Below are positions 3,438 through 10,575 of a stretch of 10,575 bases of DNA, in pieces. Within the stretch, counting starts at the first letter, position 1, and the number at the start of each line of letters is the position of its first letter. Made by a program: the position numbers and the translations under genes. Source of the stretch: Candidatus Omnitrophota bacterium (GTDB taxonomy: Bacteria; Hinthialibacterota; Hinthialibacteria; Hinthialibacterales; JAKPRU01); the NCBI GenBank assembly GCA_029570205.1, contig JAKQSI010000026.1, forward strand, positions 1 through 10,575, written 5' to 3'. The notes below the pieces were generated by a model. It was not told the origin of the DNA, did not search any database, and worked only from the letters and a program-made list of their open reading frames with translations.

Positions 3438-4781
3438 TCAAACCAGCCCCTGGTCCAGCATCGCGTTGGCTACTTTTACAAAACCGGTGATATTGGCCCC
3501 CATTACGAGGTTACCCGGGCACCCGTATTCTTTCGCCGTATCCGAGACAGAGGTATAAATCGCCCTCATGATCTCCTGTAGTCGTCGATCGACCTCCTCC
3601 CTGGGCCAGTAGATGTGCTGCGCATTCTGGGCCATTTCCAGACCGGAAACGGCCACTCCACCGGCATTCGCGGCTTTTCCAGGACCGTAAAGAATCTTCC
3701 GTTCCAGGAACAAACGAACTCCATCCGGATCGGTCGGCATATTCGCCCCTTCGGTCACAACGAAGCATCCGTTATCCAGAAGCATTTTGGCATCCTCACC
3801 GTTAATCTCATTCTGTGTCGCGCTGGGAAACGCGCAATCGCATCTGATCCCCCAGGGCCGTACCCCCTCTTTGTACACGGCGGTGGGAAATGCCTCAACA
3901 TATTCGCGAATTCGTCCGCGCCGGACATTCTTTAGTTCCATAACATAGTGTAGTTTTTCCTCGGAGATCCCGTCCGGGTCATAGATGGTTCCATTGGAGT
4001 CGGAAAGAGAAACGCATTTTCCGCCCAACTGGGTGACTTTCTCTACCGTATACTGCGCCACGTTACCGGAACCGGACACTGTACAGATTTTGCCTTGCAG
4101 GCTGTCTCCCCTGGATTCGAGCATGTTCTGTGCGAAATACGTGGCTCCGTAGCCGGTCGCTTCCGGACGAATATACGAACCGCCCCAGTTGAATCCTTTC
4201 CCGGTAATCGCACCGGAGAATTCGTTACGAATCCGCTTGTATTGCCCGAACAGGAACCCGATCTCTCTCCCGCCCACGCCGATATCCCCGGCGGGCACAT
4301 CGACATTATCGCCGATATACCGTTGCAGTTCGGTCATGAACGACTGGCAGAAGCGCATGACCTCGACATCGGACTTTCCCTTCGGGTCGAAGTCGGAACC
4401 GCCCTTGCCGCCGCCCATCGGAAGGGTGGTCAGGGCATTCTTGAAGATCTGCTCGAATGCCAGGAATTTCAGCACGCCGAGATGCACAGTGGGATGAAAG
4501 CGCAACCCGCCCTTGTACGGGCCGATGGCGCTGTTGAATTCGATACGGAACCCGCGATTGATGCGGTCGTTCCCCTGCTCATCCGTCCACGGCACACGGA
4601 ACATGACCACCCGCTCCGGCTCGATCAGTCGTTCCAGAATGAGATGCTTTTCATACTTAGGATGTCTCTCCAACACCGGTCCCAGGGAATCGAGAACCTC
4701 TTTGACCGCCTGGGCAAATTCCGGCTCCGCCGGATTCCGCTTCACCACCAGATCCATGATCCTTGATGCATACGAAGACAT
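3438..4781 (-). CDS. gdhA: NADP-specific glutamate dehydrogenase
   Basis: Catalyses reductive amination of 2-oxoglutarate with ammonium and NADPH to glutamate in the cytoplasm; the family is hexameric. The 447-residue length from ATG 4781 equals that of E. coli GdhA, and the sequence can be followed alongside it throughout. Visible signatures are the substrate-binding lysine in GPYKGGLRF (Lys90), the catalytic lysine in PMGGGKGGSDFDPKG (Lys126), Asp166 in VPAGDIGVGGRE, and the Rossmann motif GSGNVA (237-242). SDSNG at about 260-264 matches the NADP-type GdhA pattern. The C-terminal EGANMPT and PGKAANAGGVAVSGLEM blocks are intact. I chose ATG 4781 over ATG 4820 because it aligns with family N-termini and has AAGAAAGAGG 10 bases upstream. 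It is transcribed divergently from an NrpR-type regulator, which suggests nitrogen control, and ends at a strong terminator. Confidence 0.97.
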   Translation of the reverse strand: MSSYASRIMDLVVKRNPAEPEFAQAVKEVLDSLGPVLERHPKYEKHLILERLIEPERVVMFRVPWTDEQGNDRINRGFRIEFNSAIGPYKGGLRFHPTVHLGVLKFLAFEQIFKNALTTLPMGGGKGGSDFDPKGKSDVEVMRFCQSFMTELQRYIGDNVDVPAGDIGVGGREIGFLFGQYKRIRNEFSGAITGKGFNWGGSYIRPEATGYGATYFAQNMLESRGDSLQGKICTVSGSGNVAQYTVEKVTQLGGKCVSLSDSNGTIYDPDGISEEKLHYVMELKNVRRGRIREYVEAFPTAVYKEGVRPWGIRCDCAFPSATQNEINGEDAKMLLDNGCFVVTEGANMPTDPDGVRLFLERKILYGPGKAANAGGVAVSGLEMAQNAQHIYWPREEVDRRLQEIMRAIYTSVSDTAKEYGCPGNLVMGANITGFVKVANAMLDQGLV

Positions 4782-4791
4782 AATTATTGAA

Positions 4792-4801
4792 CCTCTTTCT
4801 T
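4792..4801 (-). promoter_or_regulatory. Ribosome binding site of gdhA, deciding the start
   Basis: On the minus strand AAGAAAGAGG lies 10 bases before ATG 4781. The alternative ATG at 4820 lies upstream of this site, so it cannot use it. This supports the 447-residue product. Confidence 0.7.
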
Positions 4802-4896
4802 CCGCTCGGAGCGGCGACACCGTTTATGCTGTCGGATCGGCTGATCAGTTCAAGCACAGAGCCGGTGTGAAATAGGCGTCCGTTTCCTTTATATTA

Positions 4897-4912
4897 TGGC
4901 AGATGGAGGCCA
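4897..4912. promoter_or_regulatory. Weak inverted repeat TGGC-N8-GCCA near gdhA promoter
   Basis: TGGC (4897-4900) and GCCA (4909-4912) form an inverted repeat with an 8-bp spacer. It shares the half-sites TTATGGCA and GCCAATT with the two better palindromes at 5176-5233. It lies about 115-130 bp upstream of the gdhA start codon, next to minus-strand -10-like sequences. The spacer differs by 2 bp from the other two sites, so a shared binding protein is only a guess. Confidence 0.3.
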
Positions 4913-5175
4913 ATTCTGATTAGAATACAAAACGAGCTTCTTCATGTCAAGGCAGCCGGACAATTCGAGGCCATCTTTCTTCCCGGATTTTCGGACAGCT
5001 CGGCAACTCAGAATAATTTTACCTGATAAGTGGTTCATAAATAAGGCCTTATGCCAATTCATTCAGAAATCAGTTTGAGTGGATCATCGAAGAAAAAGGG
5101 CCAACCCTGGACCGGATGCCTTTGAAGAAGGAAAATAGAATTGGGTGGTGATTTTATATACTTCAAACGGTATTT

Positions 5176-5191
5176 ATGGCATTCTTGCCAT
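5176..5191. promoter_or_regulatory. Candidate NrpR operator 1 (ATGGC-N6-GCCAT)
   Basis: ATGGCATTCTTGCCAT is an inverted repeat with 6-bp arms (ATGGCA/TGCCAT) around TTCT. Written as TGGC-N6-GCCA it has the same 4-6-4 geometry as the archaeal NrpR operator GGAA-N6-TTCC. Its centre is 43 bp from that of the second site, about four helical turns, so both would face the same side of the DNA. Confidence 0.5.
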
Positions 5192-5199
5192 TATGTGGT

Positions 5200-5228
5200 T
5201 TGATTTCAGGCCAGATAAATGGTAATAT
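5200..5228 (+). promoter_or_regulatory. Predicted promoter of the NrpR-type gene
   Basis: TTGATT (5200-5205) and TAATAT (5223-5228), separated by exactly 17 bp, each match the sigma-70 consensus at 4 of 6 positions. The -10 box lies inside the second palindrome (5220-5233). Transcription would start near 5235, leaving a short leader before the ribosome binding site at 5250-5258. Confidence 0.4.
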
Positions 5229-5233
5229 TGCCA
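5220..5233. promoter_or_regulatory. Candidate NrpR operator 2 (TGGT-N6-GCCA) over the -10 box
   Basis: TGGTAATATTGCCA is an imperfect palindrome with one mismatched pair (T against G) and the same TGGY-N6-GCCA layout as the site at 5176-5191. Flanking A/T bases (5217-5218 and 5235-5236) extend the symmetry. It covers the predicted -10 box, as expected for an autorepressor site. Confidence 0.5.
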
Positions 5234-5249
5234 ATTAGGAAGATTTGGT

Positions 5250-5258
5250 AAGGAAAGG
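5250..5258 (+). promoter_or_regulatory. Ribosome binding site before a non-AUG start
   Basis: AAGGAAAGG is a strong Shine-Dalgarno-like sequence. No in-frame ATG, GTG or TTG follows at proper distance. The in-frame codons in range are ATT 5259, ACG 5265 and ATT 5268; ATT 5268 is 9 bases after the purine run. Confidence 0.5.
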
Positions 5259-5267
5259 ATTTCGACG

Positions 5268-6263
5268 ATTTCCGAGATTCACCAGAAACAGAAGATTGCC
5301 ATTCTGCGCGTTCTCCGCAATTATGGCCACCCAATCGGCAGCGCCACGATCGCCAGGGAGATTGAGGCTTCCGGTTTTTATTTGAGCGACCGCACAATCC
5401 GCCTTTATCTCCAAGAGATGGAGCGCGAGGGTCTGGTCGCCCATGCGAGACGTGGTCGGCACGGTGGACGGACGATCACCGAGCTGGGAATCGGCGAAAT
5501 CAAAGATGCCCTGGTGATGGAGCGCGTCGGATTCACAGCCGCGAAAGTGGACACCCTCGCCTGGAAAATCTCGTTCGATCTTGCCTCCAAATCCGGCCTG
5601 GTCGTGCTGAATGTCTCGCTGATTCGTGAGTCCTGTCTCAGGGCCGCGATCAATGAGATCATTCCCGTTTTCAGAGCCGGGCTGAGCATGGGGGAGTATC
5701 TTTACCTCGGACGTTCCGGCGAGGAAATCGGCGAATTCCAGATCCCGCCCGGCTATGTGGCCATCGGCACGGTCTGTACCGTCACATTGAATGGGGTCCT
5801 TCTCAGCGCACGAATTCCGACGGATTCGCGCTTCGGGGGCATGCTGGAAGTACAGAACCGAACTCCCATCCGGTTTACCGATGTAATCTATTACGACGGA
5901 ACTTCACTCGATCCTCTGGAAATTTTTATCAAAGGCGGCCTGACCAGTGTTCGCGAGGCCGTACGAACGGGACATGGTCGTATCGGAGTGAGTTTTCGCG
6001 AAGTCCCGACGGCTGCGATGGCCGAAGTAGAGAAAGTGCTTCGCAGGATGGATCAAATCGGTCTCGGCGGGGTTCTGATGATTGGAAGACCCAGTCAGCC
6101 GGTTCTTGATTTCCCCGTTCAGGAAGGCCGAACCGCAATCCTGCTGATCGGAGGCCTGAATCCTCTTGCAGCCGTCGAGGAGGCCGGAATGCCGACTACT
6201 AATTTCGCATTATGTACCCTGTTCGAGTTCCAACGGTTGATCCATTACAGTGAAATCAGGTAG
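5268..6263 (+). CDS. NrpR-type nitrogen regulator (wHTH plus NrpR/DUF128 domain)
   Basis: A cytoplasmic transcription factor. With a start at ATT 5268 it has 331 residues. Residues about 6-55 form a winged helix (KIAILRVLRNYG ... IAREIEASG ... SDRTIRLYLQEMEREGLV), followed by GRTITELG. The rest is a single NrpR regulatory domain with family-typical blocks: GTVCTVTLNGVLLSARIPTDSRFGG, YYDGTSLDPLEIF, a GxGxxxxxFREVP segment, and near the C-terminus LIGGLNPLAAVEEAG. In methanogens NrpR represses nitrogen-assimilation genes and is released by 2-oxoglutarate. Some archaeal members have two such domains; this one has one. It is divergent from gdhA and preceded by twin palindromes, so autoregulation and gdhA control are likely inferences. 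The first standard start, TTG 5382, would delete most of the DNA-binding domain, so a non-AUG start or an indel is implied. The frame is open from 5226. Confidence 0.85.
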   Translation: MSEIHQKQKIAILRVLRNYGHPIGSATIAREIEASGFYLSDRTIRLYLQEMEREGLVAHARRGRHGGRTITELGIGEIKDALVMERVGFTAAKVDTLAWKISFDLASKSGLVVLNVSLIRESCLRAAINEIIPVFRAGLSMGEYLYLGRSGEEIGEFQIPPGYVAIGTVCTVTLNGVLLSARIPTDSRFGGMLEVQNRTPIRFTDVIYYDGTSLDPLEIFIKGGLTSVREAVRTGHGRIGVSFREVPTAAMAEVEKVLRRMDQIGLGGVLMIGRPSQPVLDFPVQEGRTAILLIGGLNPLAAVEEAGMPTTNFALCTLFEFQRLIHYSEIR

Positions 6264-6344: not shown

Positions 6345-8972
6345 ATGGTAATGATGAACGCCCAGCTGAGTACGGGCCTTCCCGGCCTGGACCGCGTGAT
6401 CCGCGGAATTATCCCGGGCGATAATGTCGTCTGGCGTGTCGATTCGATTGACGATTATCTCGCTTTTGTCAAACCGTACTGCAGCAGTGCCATCCGACTT
6501 GAAAGGAAACTCGTCTATTTTCGATTCGCCAAACACGATCCCCTGCTCACAGGAGATTCCGGGGCTGACATTTACACGATCGATCCGCAATCCGGTTTCG
6601 AGAGCTTCATCACGGAAATCCACCAGCGAATCAAGCAAGCCGGACTTGGAGCCTTTTTTGTCTTCGATTGCCTGTCCGATCTGGCGGTGGATTGGTACAG
6701 CGACCAGATGCTCGGGAATTTCTTTATGTTGACCTGCCCTTATCTCTATGACCTGGAAACCATCGCCTATTTCGGTCTCCTGAGAAATTACCATTCCTAC
6801 CACGCGGTTTCCGCCATCGCGGAAACGGCCCAAGTTTTTCTTGATGTCTACCGTCACCAGGGAAACATCTACGTTCGTCCGATGAAGGTGCAGCAACGCA
6901 ACTCCCCGATGATGTTCATGTTTCACATTTGGGAGAACTCCACCTTTCGACCGGTAGCCGACAGCTCCACAATTGCGGAGATCCTGAATTCCTCCCCCTG
7001 GTCGGGCGTCGAATCCGCCAGTCCCCGGATGAATATCTGGAACCGGATATTTCGACAGGCGGAGGATATCCGGCAAAAGACGGCTGAAGAAAAGGAATAT
7101 TCTGCCGAGACTCAAGAAGTCTTTCACCGACTTTTGCGAATGATTGTATCGCGTGATGAGCGGATGTTTCGGCTCGCGAAGAAGTATTTTACGCTGAAAG
7201 ACTTGCTCGATATCGGCAAGCGGATGATCGGAACCGGATTAGTCGGTGGAAAATCGGTCGGCATGTTGCTGGCTCGCGCCATTCTGAGGCAGGCAAGCGA
7301 TCGTTGGCGAGACCTGCTGGAGGTTCATGATTCTGTCTTTATCGGCTCGGACGTTTTTTACACATTTCTGGTTCAGAACGGATGCTGGTGGAAACGTCCG
7401 GAGAAAAGAGACATCCATACGATGCTCAGCGTGGCAGAGATCGCCCGGCAGCGGATTCTAATGGGGACTTTCCCGGATCACATTATTAAACAATTTGCGG
7501 ACATGCTCGACTATTTCGGACAATCGCCGATTATCGTTCGATCCAGTAGTCTTCTGGAGGACAATTTCGGGAATTCCTTTGCGGGTAAATATGAGAGTGT
7601 GTTCTGCGCCAACCAGGGTTCCCGGCATAAGCGGCTCGAAGATTTCATGTTTGCGGTGCGCACGATCTATGCCAGCACCATGAGCGAGAAAGCGATCCGC
7701 TATCGCGCCGGACGGGGACTGCTGGATTCGGAAGAACAGATGGCCCTTCTGGTACAGCGTGTCTCCGGCTCTCTGTATGGCAGCCTGTTTTATCCGCAGA
7801 TTGCCGGAACGGGATTTTCATTCAATCCGTATGTCTGGAGCGAAAGGATCGACCCGGAGGCAGGGGTGCTTCGCCTGGTGTTCGGACTTGGAACCCGCGC
7901 GGTAGATCGCTCGGATGACGACTACACGCGAGTGGTGGCGTTGAACGCACCCGAACGAAGGCCGGAGGGAAGCCCGGAGGCGGCAAGGCAATACGCACAG
8001 CGTAAAGTCGATGTATTGGATCTGGAGGCCAATCAGCTGGTCTCGCGGAGTTTTATGCAGGTCGCTGAACACGGTGAAGGACTTCCGATTGATCTCTTCG
8101 CATCCGACCGTTCAGGACCGGTCCGGGCCGATAATTCGGGAATATCGCGCAATCCATCAGACTGGAGCCTGACTTTTGAAAAGCTACTTTCCCGCTCCGA
8201 TTTTCCGAAGAACATGCGCGAGATGCTGGCGACACTTCGCGAGGCCTACGACTACCCGGTAGACATTGAATTTACCGCCAATTTCGAGAACGAACATACA
8301 TACCGGATCAATCTCGTACAATGCCGACCGTTCCAGGTAAAGGGAACCGGCGTGATTGTTCCGTTCCCCGAGAATATCGACGAGAAAAACCTTATTTTGG
8401 AGACAAAGGGGCCTGTAATCGGTCATAGCCGTTCGGACACGGTGGATCGATTGATTTATGTCACTCCGTCGATATACGGGCAGATGCCGCTGAATGATCG
8501 CTATTCCGTGGCCCGGCTGATCGGCAGGCTGACTCATATCGAGCCGCCGAATTCGCAGAGGAATGTGATGCTTCTTGGTCCGGGTCGTTGGGGGACGACC
8601 ACGCCATCGCTGGGTGTTCCGGTTTCCTTTGCGGAGATTAACACGGTGTCTTTCCTATGCGAGATTGTGGCCATGCGCGAGGACCTTGTGCCGGATGTGT
8701 CGTTGGGAACGCACTTTTTCAGTGAATTGATCGAGATGAACATGCTTTACCTGGCATTGTATCCTGACCAGGAAAACAACTACCTGAAACGGTCCTTTTT
8801 CGAGGAGTCACCCAACAAGTTGATCGAGTTGCTTCCGAATGTCGAGAAGTGGGCGGAGGTGGTTCGAGTGATTGACATGACAGATGCCGCTCCCGGGCGT
8901 GTGCTTCGGTTGAATGCGAACACGCTCAAGCAGGAGGCGGTTTGCTATCTGGAGCGGGCCGAGACGTTTTGA
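6345..8972 (+). CDS. PEP/pyruvate-binding domain protein with degenerate KaiC-like N-terminus
   Basis: An 875-residue soluble protein. Residues 9-21 (STGLPGLDRVIRG) match the opening of KaiC/RecA-like ATPases. The phosphate-binding loop that should follow is replaced by IPGDNVVWRVDSIDDY, so Walker A is missing. A Walker-B-like strand, AFFVFD (103-108), and KaiC-like C-terminal strands (about 158-195) remain. After a charged helical linker (about 235-290) comes a PEP synthase/PPDK ATP-binding domain: GLVGGKSVGM (298-307), IVRSSSLLEDNFGNSFAGKYES (397-418), QRVSGSLYG (471-479) and VDIEFTAN ... INLVQCRPF (639-663). The usual TxGGxxSH phosphohistidine domain and the PEP-binding barrel are absent. 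The C-terminus (about 670-875, with LLGPGRWGTTTPSLGVP) is unfamiliar. It could phosphorylate an unknown acceptor or only bind ATP; function is not established. ATG 6345 has GGAG 7 bases upstream. Confidence 0.75.
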   Translation: MVMMNAQLSTGLPGLDRVIRGIIPGDNVVWRVDSIDDYLAFVKPYCSSAIRLERKLVYFRFAKHDPLLTGDSGADIYTIDPQSGFESFITEIHQRIKQAGLGAFFVFDCLSDLAVDWYSDQMLGNFFMLTCPYLYDLETIAYFGLLRNYHSYHAVSAIAETAQVFLDVYRHQGNIYVRPMKVQQRNSPMMFMFHIWENSTFRPVADSSTIAEILNSSPWSGVESASPRMNIWNRIFRQAEDIRQKTAEEKEYSAETQEVFHRLLRMIVSRDERMFRLAKKYFTLKDLLDIGKRMIGTGLVGGKSVGMLLARAILRQASDRWRDLLEVHDSVFIGSDVFYTFLVQNGCWWKRPEKRDIHTMLSVAEIARQRILMGTFPDHIIKQFADMLDYFGQSPIIVRSSSLLEDNFGNSFAGKYESVFCANQGSRHKRLEDFMFAVRTIYASTMSEKAIRYRAGRGLLDSEEQMALLVQRVSGSLYGSLFYPQIAGTGFSFNPYVWSERIDPEAGVLRLVFGLGTRAVDRSDDDYTRVVALNAPERRPEGSPEAARQYAQRKVDVLDLEANQLVSRSFMQVAEHGEGLPIDLFASDRSGPVRADNSGISRNPSDWSLTFEKLLSRSDFPKNMREMLATLREAYDYPVDIEFTANFENEHTYRINLVQCRPFQVKGTGVIVPFPENIDEKNLILETKGPVIGHSRSDTVDRLIYVTPSIYGQMPLNDRYSVARLIGRLTHIEPPNSQRNVMLLGPGRWGTTTPSLGVPVSFAEINTVSFLCEIVAMREDLVPDVSLGTHFFSELIEMNMLYLALYPDQENNYLKRSFFEESPNKLIELLPNVEKWAEVVRVIDMTDAAPGRVLRLNANTLKQEAVCYLERAETF

Positions 8973-9028: not shown

Positions 9029-9049
9029 ACTGATTGATGGTTGTTCATT

Positions 9050-9123
9050 GCGCCGATGGCTCAATTGGATAGAGCATCTGACTACGGATCAGAAGGTTGG
9101 GGGTTCGATTCCCTCTCGGCGCG
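9050..9123 (+). tRNA. tRNA-Arg (anticodon ACG)
   Basis: A complete 74-nt cloverleaf. The acceptor arm is GCGCCGA/TCGGCGC with discriminator G. The D arm is GCTC/GAGC. The anticodon stem TCTGA/TCAGA encloses loop CTACGGA with anticodon ACG, normally edited to ICG to read CGU, CGC and CGA. The variable loop is AGGTT. The T arm GGGGG/CCCTC, with one G-U pair, closes loop TTCGATT. CCA is not encoded and must be added enzymatically. Phage genes begin about 600 bp downstream, so its 3' end is a natural candidate for an integration site, though no integrase is visible. Confidence 0.97.
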
Positions 9124-9729
9124 GGTTGAAAAGACTGGACTTACGTACTTCCCACCGGACCCTCAATTTCCCGGAGTGAGCATAGAGTGAGCAGGAGAGG
9201 GAAACACCGGCCCCTTTTGACGCACCCCGGACGGCCCGGAAATGTCCCGGTTCCCCGTCCAGCCCGGACGATATGAGACTCATCCCCTCATTCCATCGCC
9301 CCACAGAACGAAAATCCGGCCTGTCCCTGCAAGACATGAGATCAGGAATGCAATCGCGCCCGGTTCCGGGTTCCCGTGGAAAGGGTGAGAGGTTCCCCCT
9401 GGTCCGCTTCGATCCCGATCCGGCCCCACCTGTCCCGATCCGCGCCGATGGTTTCCGAAGGGTGAGACAACCCCCGGTTCCTGCGGATGGGACCCATGTT
9501 CGCACAGGAACGGAATGCACCGCGCCGCCGATGGTCTGGACGGATGGGAGTCCGGTCCGATGGGAGAGGGTGAGAATGCCCGGATTGGACCCGTTGCCCC
9601 TGTGCGCCTGGAAGGGTGGCCCCGGACGGTCCGATCCCTGGAAGGTCTATCAACCGATGGGACCCCCGCGCCGCCCAGGTCGAAAATGAGGAAACCCCGG
9701 ACGGCCAAGGGAGGTTAAACGAAAATGGC
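9124..9729. other. GC-rich repetitive stretch without recognisable genes
   Basis: About 600 bp in which several frames on both strands are open, but the translations are Pro/Gly/Arg/Ser-rich and match no family I know. It contains reiterated words: GGGTGAGA at 9383, 9460 and 9568, each followed within a few bases by a C-run, and CCCCGGACGGYCC at 9225 and 9620 with a truncated copy at 9695. This looks like a degenerate repeat array or decayed DNA between the tRNA and phage genes. The open frames are explained by low stop-codon density in GC-rich sequence. Confidence 0.45.
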
Positions 9730-10041: not shown

Positions 10042-10575
10042 TCAATCTGAGGCACGATCTCGGTCCGGTCCGGTACTTTCATCCGCAGCAGTTTGCGCCC
10101 GTAGGAGGTTCTTGCGTTGCCCCTGTTTCAAAAACTTGTCGAATGCGCTTTCTTCCGATGGTTCGATCTCTCGGAGAGGGATACCGCGCCGGGACTTCGG
10201 CCCGTTCATGCCGAACCGATCCGCAAGGTCATTGAATGCACGTGTCAATTCCCGACAAACGCGAAAACGTGGGTTTGACTTGCGCAATCCGCTTGCCGCC
10301 ATGTATGCGCTTCCTTCCTCCAGCAAGAGGGTCTCTTCGCGTTTGAGTAGGCTCCAGATCCGGCAAAGTTGAATGAATGCCAGCCGGTCGATCTCCGAAA
10401 GCAATCCCATCCCGGCCAACTGCGCCGCATGTTGCTTCCAGAAACCAGCCGCCAACTTATCGGTGCGCAGTTCGACAGGACAGCGCAAAGAACGGAGAGG
10501 TTCCGGTTCGATCTTGCCGCCGGAATCCCGATCCCGGCGATACGTGCCCCTGAGTTTCAAGACGTTCGACGGTGT
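10042..10575 (-). CDS. Phage terminase small subunit, P27 family (partial, 5' end outside window)
   Basis: The frame is open to the window edge and about 177 residues are visible. The visible N-terminus reads TPSNVLKLRGTYRRDR, matching the family pattern 'kP..lk.L.GtyRkdR', so the real start is just beyond 10575; TTG 10560 would cut this conserved stretch. The core (AAGFWKQHAAQLAGMGLLSE, IDRLAFIQLCRIWSLLKREE, NPRFRVCRELTRAFNDLADRFGM) follows the P27 terminase layout of a helical domain with the 'GLLTelDr.al...c..w' signature and a C-terminal 'a...l...a..fGltP.sR.r' motif (FGMNGPKSRRGIP). The small terminase recognises phage DNA and delivers it to the large terminase for packaging. A large terminase gene would normally follow, but only the 93-residue gene does, so this is a prophage edge or remnant. 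Confidence 0.8.
   Translation of the reverse strand, partial: TPSNVLKLRGTYRRDRDSGGKIEPEPLRSLRCPVELRTDKLAAGFWKQHAAQLAGMGLLSEIDRLAFIQLCRIWSLLKREETLLLEEGSAYMAASGLRKSNPRFRVCRELTRAFNDLADRFGMNGPKSRRGIPLREIEPSEESAFDKFLKQGQRKNLLRAQTAADESTGPDRDRASD

Follow-up and report, generated by a model that had tools for sequence, protein, structure and literature searches.

The window analysed here is a single 10.6-kb contig (10,575 bp) of a 4.39-Mb MAG. It carries, in order, gdhA on the minus strand, nrpR on the plus strand and a plus-strand gene for a PPDK_N-like protein, with the following features:

3438–4781, minus strand: gdhA, NADP-specific glutamate dehydrogenase, divergent from nrpR (Pfam, NCBIfam and synteny)
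4897–4912, strandless: N10 palindrome TGGCAGATGGAGGCCA, of the form GG-N10-CC, centred near +11 relative to the predicted gdhA start; a weak copy of a site present across the phylum
4922–4950, minus strand: predicted sigma-70 promoter of gdhA, TTGACA-N17-TATTCT (10/12 matches; −35 box invariant in congeners)
5177–5190, strandless: N8 palindrome 1, TGGCATTCTTGCCA, near −51 relative to the predicted nrpR start (pattern, matrix and congeners)
5200–5228, plus strand: predicted weak promoter of nrpR, TTGATT-N17-TAATAT (8/12 matches, below the cut of the scan tool)
5220–5233, strandless: N8 palindrome 2, TGGTAATATTGCCA, over the predicted −10 box of nrpR, at about −8 (pattern, matrix and congeners)
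5250–5258, plus strand: Shine-Dalgarno-like AAGGAAAGG, 9 nt 5′ of the ATT start of nrpR (from sequence)
5268–6263, plus strand: nrpR, winged-helix HTH and one NRD, probable ATT start (Pfam, 3nek and orthologue alignment)
6345–8972, plus strand: gene for the PPDK_N-like protein, 875 residues (Pfam PPDK_N 1.6e-47; synteny)

The gdhA product matches Pfam ELFV_dehydrog (E 1.5e-87) and NCBIfam PRK09414 (1e-221, above the cut-off). NrpR is built from an N-terminal winged helix (HTH_12 PF08461, E 7.2e-14, residues 10–77) and a single C-terminal effector domain (NRD1_2 PF01995, E 2.8e-73, 1–236/238), and its residues 91–330 match the solved structure of the M. jannaschii MJ0159 NRD (PDB 3nek, E 2.7e-21). 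The original prediction of a bacterial, single-domain NrpR homologue divergent from a glutamate dehydrogenase gene is thus borne out. Across 27 bacterial NrpR sequences, the NRD motifs G-T-x-C-x-x-T, Y-x-G-x-x-L-D-P and G-G-x-N-P are invariant or nearly so. An AlphaFold model, bearing on how an NrpR dimer or tetramer meets a palindrome, reached a pLDDT of 51.5 and was too poor for use.

The first ATG, GTG or TTG in the nrpR frame appears only from residue 39 on. The gene likely begins at the ATT at 5268–5270, a rare start codon, since this triplet aligns with the ATG and TTG starts of orthologues and is kept in both congeners. An in-frame GTG is also present upstream of the nrpR ATT in G002. 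The rare start may keep repressor levels low.

The PPDK_N-like protein has a GDNVVW N-terminus, and at least three phyla conserve it as a neighbour of nrpR; next to the GOGAT-nrpR-glnB-glnA genes of G137 lies a KaiC-HTH-cupin protein whose N-terminus is similar. Further along the window lie a tRNA-Arg(acg) at 9049–9124 and, about 900 bp on, a minus-strand gene for a phage terminase small subunit (10042–10575), a possible prophage at the contig end.

Palindromes at the two predicted promoters

The two palindromes upstream of nrpR, centred at 5183.5 and 5226.5 and thus 43 bp apart, are present as the original prediction described them, and they are the sole matches to TGGY-N6-GCCA within the window. 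The pattern gives three strand-matches against 0.55 expected from whole-window shuffles, and three or more arose in 7 of 200 shuffles. A PWM derived from other phyla only places the pair 1st and 2nd in the entire window, with scores of 16.5 and 12.4 bits that background sequence equals or exceeds at 7.9 and 34 positions per Mb. In two congeners, both palindromes lie at identical distances from nrpR with their sequence largely kept: no variation is seen in 25 of the 28 palindrome columns, compared with 294 of 477 columns over the intergenic region as a whole, and among 420 windows of the same shape just 3 match this level. Because they are conserved while the surrounding intergenic DNA drifts, and because they hold the top matrix ranks, the palindromes are not a product of chance. 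We read them as candidate autoregulatory sites of nrpR. The second does cover the predicted −10 box, TAATAT, as proposed, but the promoter to which that box belongs is weak, with 8 of 12 matches. The 43-bp spacing is retained within the genus only, and it would be explained by centres at −51 and −8, positions that derive from weak promoter calls.

One claim about these sites did not survive. They had been assigned the 4-6-4 geometry of the methanogen operator, GGAA-N6-TTCC in Methanococcus maripaludis (PMC2723118); counted from the GG and CC dinucleotides, they are in fact GG-N8-CC, 2 bp shorter than the GG-N10-CC of methanogens. The difference characterises these sites and not the NrpR protein family.

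A site of the longer spacing is found on the gdhA side. All 10 loci of the window's phylum that hold the gdhA-nrpR pair have a TGG-N10-CCA-type palindrome there, with one or two mismatches in some, and the phylum consensus is TTGGCA-N6-TGCCAA. At gdhA of G007 the palindrome is the exact methanogen consensus, GGAA-TTATAT-TTCC. The window copy is of the TGGCA-N6-TGCCA type and has GGCC in one half; it is called weak because the matrix from other phyla did not recover 4897–4912. Of 19 regions with an N10 site, 18 have a TTGAC-type promoter adjoining it. Relative to the predicted strong (TTGACA-type) gdhA or GOGAT promoter, the N10 centre falls at +1 to +5 in 11 genomes, at +11 in the window's genus and between +16 and +23 in a single further phylum; G227, which lacks a good promoter call, is an exception. 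Since a repressor bound near +1 blocks initiation, we read the N10 palindrome as a putative repressor operator of glutamate synthesis, and this site best accounts for gdhA control.

Distribution and spacing across phyla

The survey covered 290 sampled genomes; the set for the window's phylum numbers 14. NrpR exceeded the family cut-off in 19 genomes, of which 10 belong to that phylum, and gdhA and nrpR are divergent in 10 of the 10 phylum loci that hold the pair, the window included. In other phyla, most nrpR genes either diverge from or share an operon with a glutamate synthase domain (PF01645) gene, an archaeal-type gdhA, glnA or P-II. The conservation of palindromes upstream of orthologous nrpR and gdhA genes, on which the original prediction depended, is seen among these relatives.

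Palindrome spacings from 0 to 12 were compared with shuffles in 20 divergent intergenic regions that are linked to nrpR and represent five or more phyla. Strong enrichment is confined to N8 (16 observed, 0.42 ± 0.67 expected) and N10 (12 observed, 0.07 ± 0.26 expected), with z of about 12 each, values to be read with the half-site arm letters having been picked after inspection of the regions and with some of the genomes closely related. The two classes also differ in placement: N10 lies toward gdhA or GOGAT and N8 toward nrpR (p = 1e-5, the sites being not all independent). Within the window's phylum alone, taken as one genome per genus, N10 reaches a z of 8.4 and N8 a modest 2.7; both are strong in the other phyla alone. 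Outside the motif definition, G278 has an N8 site of 24.7 bits, and G295 has N8 and N10 sites of 22.8 and 19.4 bits. For background, 1.84 Mb of an nrpR-less relative holds one N10 and four N8 sites of at least 17 bits. By the phylum sets of the tool, the sites occur in at least five phyla, namely that of the window and those of G037, G160, G227 and G278.

N8 is absent from the nrpR promoters of G005, G006, G011 and G013 and degenerate in that of G007, and recognisable N8 or N10 sites were not found near nrpR of G091/G233, G137 and G184. In G091 and G233 (loci L129 and L130), nrpR adjoins bioY and arginine/carbamoyl-phosphate-type genes, named by eye from sequence. Second nrpR copies lie away from gdhA in G005 (L018) and G006 (L021), with GGAA/TTCC-type palindromes upstream. 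In G133 (L137, 5743–8661), nrpR is divergent from a gene for NAD synthase (NCBIfam PRK13981), with a perfect N8 site and no N10.

A proposed local NrpR circuit and its alternatives

We consider it probable that these elements form a local, autoregulated NrpR circuit that represses glutamate synthesis and is released by 2-oxoglutarate. Its observed basis is the protein family, the synteny, the conservation, and the spacing and predicted placement at promoters of the two site classes; we infer that NrpR binds both the N8 and the N10 class, that it responds to 2-oxoglutarate and the direction of control. When nitrogen is plentiful and 2-oxoglutarate low, an NrpR dimer or tetramer would occupy GG-N10-CC at the gdhA transcription start and block RNA polymerase there; in other phyla, a glutamate-synthase-type gene, in many cases followed by gdhA or glnA, would have the corresponding site at its start. 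NrpR would also sit on GG-N8-CC palindromes in the nrpR promoter, near −51, near −8 or at both. When nitrogen is short, 2-oxoglutarate would bind the NRD and NrpR would leave the DNA, so that glutamate synthesis and nrpR would both be derepressed. Derepression by 2-oxoglutarate is a property of the methanogen protein (PMC4902934); its presumed transfer to the bacterial one draws on the conserved NRD motifs. As a whole, the original prediction stands for the bacterial NrpR, the divergent gdhA and the conserved operator-like palindromes at the regulator's own promoter, but it was mistaken about the geometry and missed the N10 site at the gdhA start.

The predicted regulon looks narrow, and local rather than global, because scans of the amt and glnA loci of the window's phylum gave no convincing sites and because the exact N10 pattern has no further intergenic match in the window's own genome: besides gdhA, its three other matches all lie inside open reading frames. 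An extension of the regulon to amt and glnA was dropped on the strength of those scans. One-mismatch N10 matches in the same genome are no commoner than those of a reversed control pattern, and three of the genomes have a distant second gdh homologue, at which no site occurs. In 1.84 Mb (~36%) of the nrpR-less G004, a search for gdhA returned only a 27%-identical homologue. As a separate observation, an ammonium transporter (PF00909) was not detected in the window's genome or its congener G001 and is present in other phylum members.

A more ambitious version of the circuit, which we offer tentatively and regard as possible but doubtful, has one repressor reading a single half-site at two spacings, each with its own output: GG-N10-CC at +1 would repress glutamate synthesis, and GG-N8-CC at −51, with or without a site at −8, would tune or activate nrpR, in a spacing-coded nitrogen switch common to at least five bacterial phyla. 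Three alternatives were weighed. First, NrpR could repress at N10 and activate its own promoter from N8 near −51, beside a weak −35 box, spacing and position together setting the sign. The N8 centre does lie at about −50/−51 of the predicted nrpR start in five genomes of other phyla, G037, G290, G293, G294 and G296, and these promoters, like that of window site 1, have weak −35 boxes (TTGCAA, TTGCTA, TTGCCA, TTGAAT, TTGATT); the promoter predictions behind these positions are themselves weak, with 8–9 of 12 matches, the second N8 palindrome of the window covers the −10 box, and NrpR is, to our knowledge, known solely as a repressor. We judge activation unlikely. Second, NrpR might act on N10 at gdhA or GOGAT only, leaving N8 near nrpR to a second regulator. 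N8 and N10 differ by exactly 2 bp with intermediates rare, and N8 is missing from some nrpR promoters, as such a division would predict, yet both classes have the half-site GGCA(A)/(T)TGCC in common, N8 is found beside nrpR in G133 too, although the neighbouring gene there encodes NAD synthase, and an unsystematic look noticed no other common regulator gene at these loci; a second regulator seems to us rather improbable. Third, we find it most improbable that the palindromes arose by chance or act as RNA hairpins (attenuator or terminator), and the terminator-like flag on 5176–5191 was rejected, given its 6-bp stem, its poor T run, its location 5′ of the predicted nrpR start and, for the sites in general, a fixed spacing kept across phyla far above shuffles.

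Relation to known nitrogen regulators

The proposed autoregulated repressor circuit matters since NrpR has so far counted as a regulator of Euryarchaeota, along with a handful of uncharacterised homologues in bacteria. Candidate operators, targets and promoter positions now give several uncultured bacterial phyla a nitrogen-control circuit specific enough to test, one that predicts how these organisms couple glutamate synthesis to nitrogen supply and that offers a clean case for studying how a single winged-helix protein copes with operators of two spacings. We found no description of a bacterial NrpR operator, neighbour or regulon in the open-access papers covered by the search.

Nitrogen assimilation in bacteria is also regulated by NtrC, GlnR/TnrA and NtcA, whose proteins and DNA sites are unrelated to those of NrpR. 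NrpR of M. maripaludis has two NRDs, whereas the bacterial protein has one. That homologues occur in certain Bacteria was already noted by Lie et al. (2007), as relayed in PMC2723118. The closest counterpart is NrpR of M. maripaludis, which acts on nif, glnA and glnK-amtB operators and resembles the bacterial system in being an HTH and NRD repressor with a palindromic operator and nitrogen-assimilation targets (PMC2723118, PMC4902934); its GGAA-N6-TTCC also has the same N10 spacing as the bacterial gdhA/GOGAT site. The bacterial half-site differs in being mostly GGCA, and an extra N8 class is present at nrpR. Such operator-like sites in the nrpR promoter are a further difference, because archaeal NrpR expression is reportedly not regulated by nitrogen supply (PMC9765008). 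Finally, the predicted targets in the window's phylum are gdhA/GOGAT rather than amt or glnA, and regulon content is no defining trait of the NrpR protein family.
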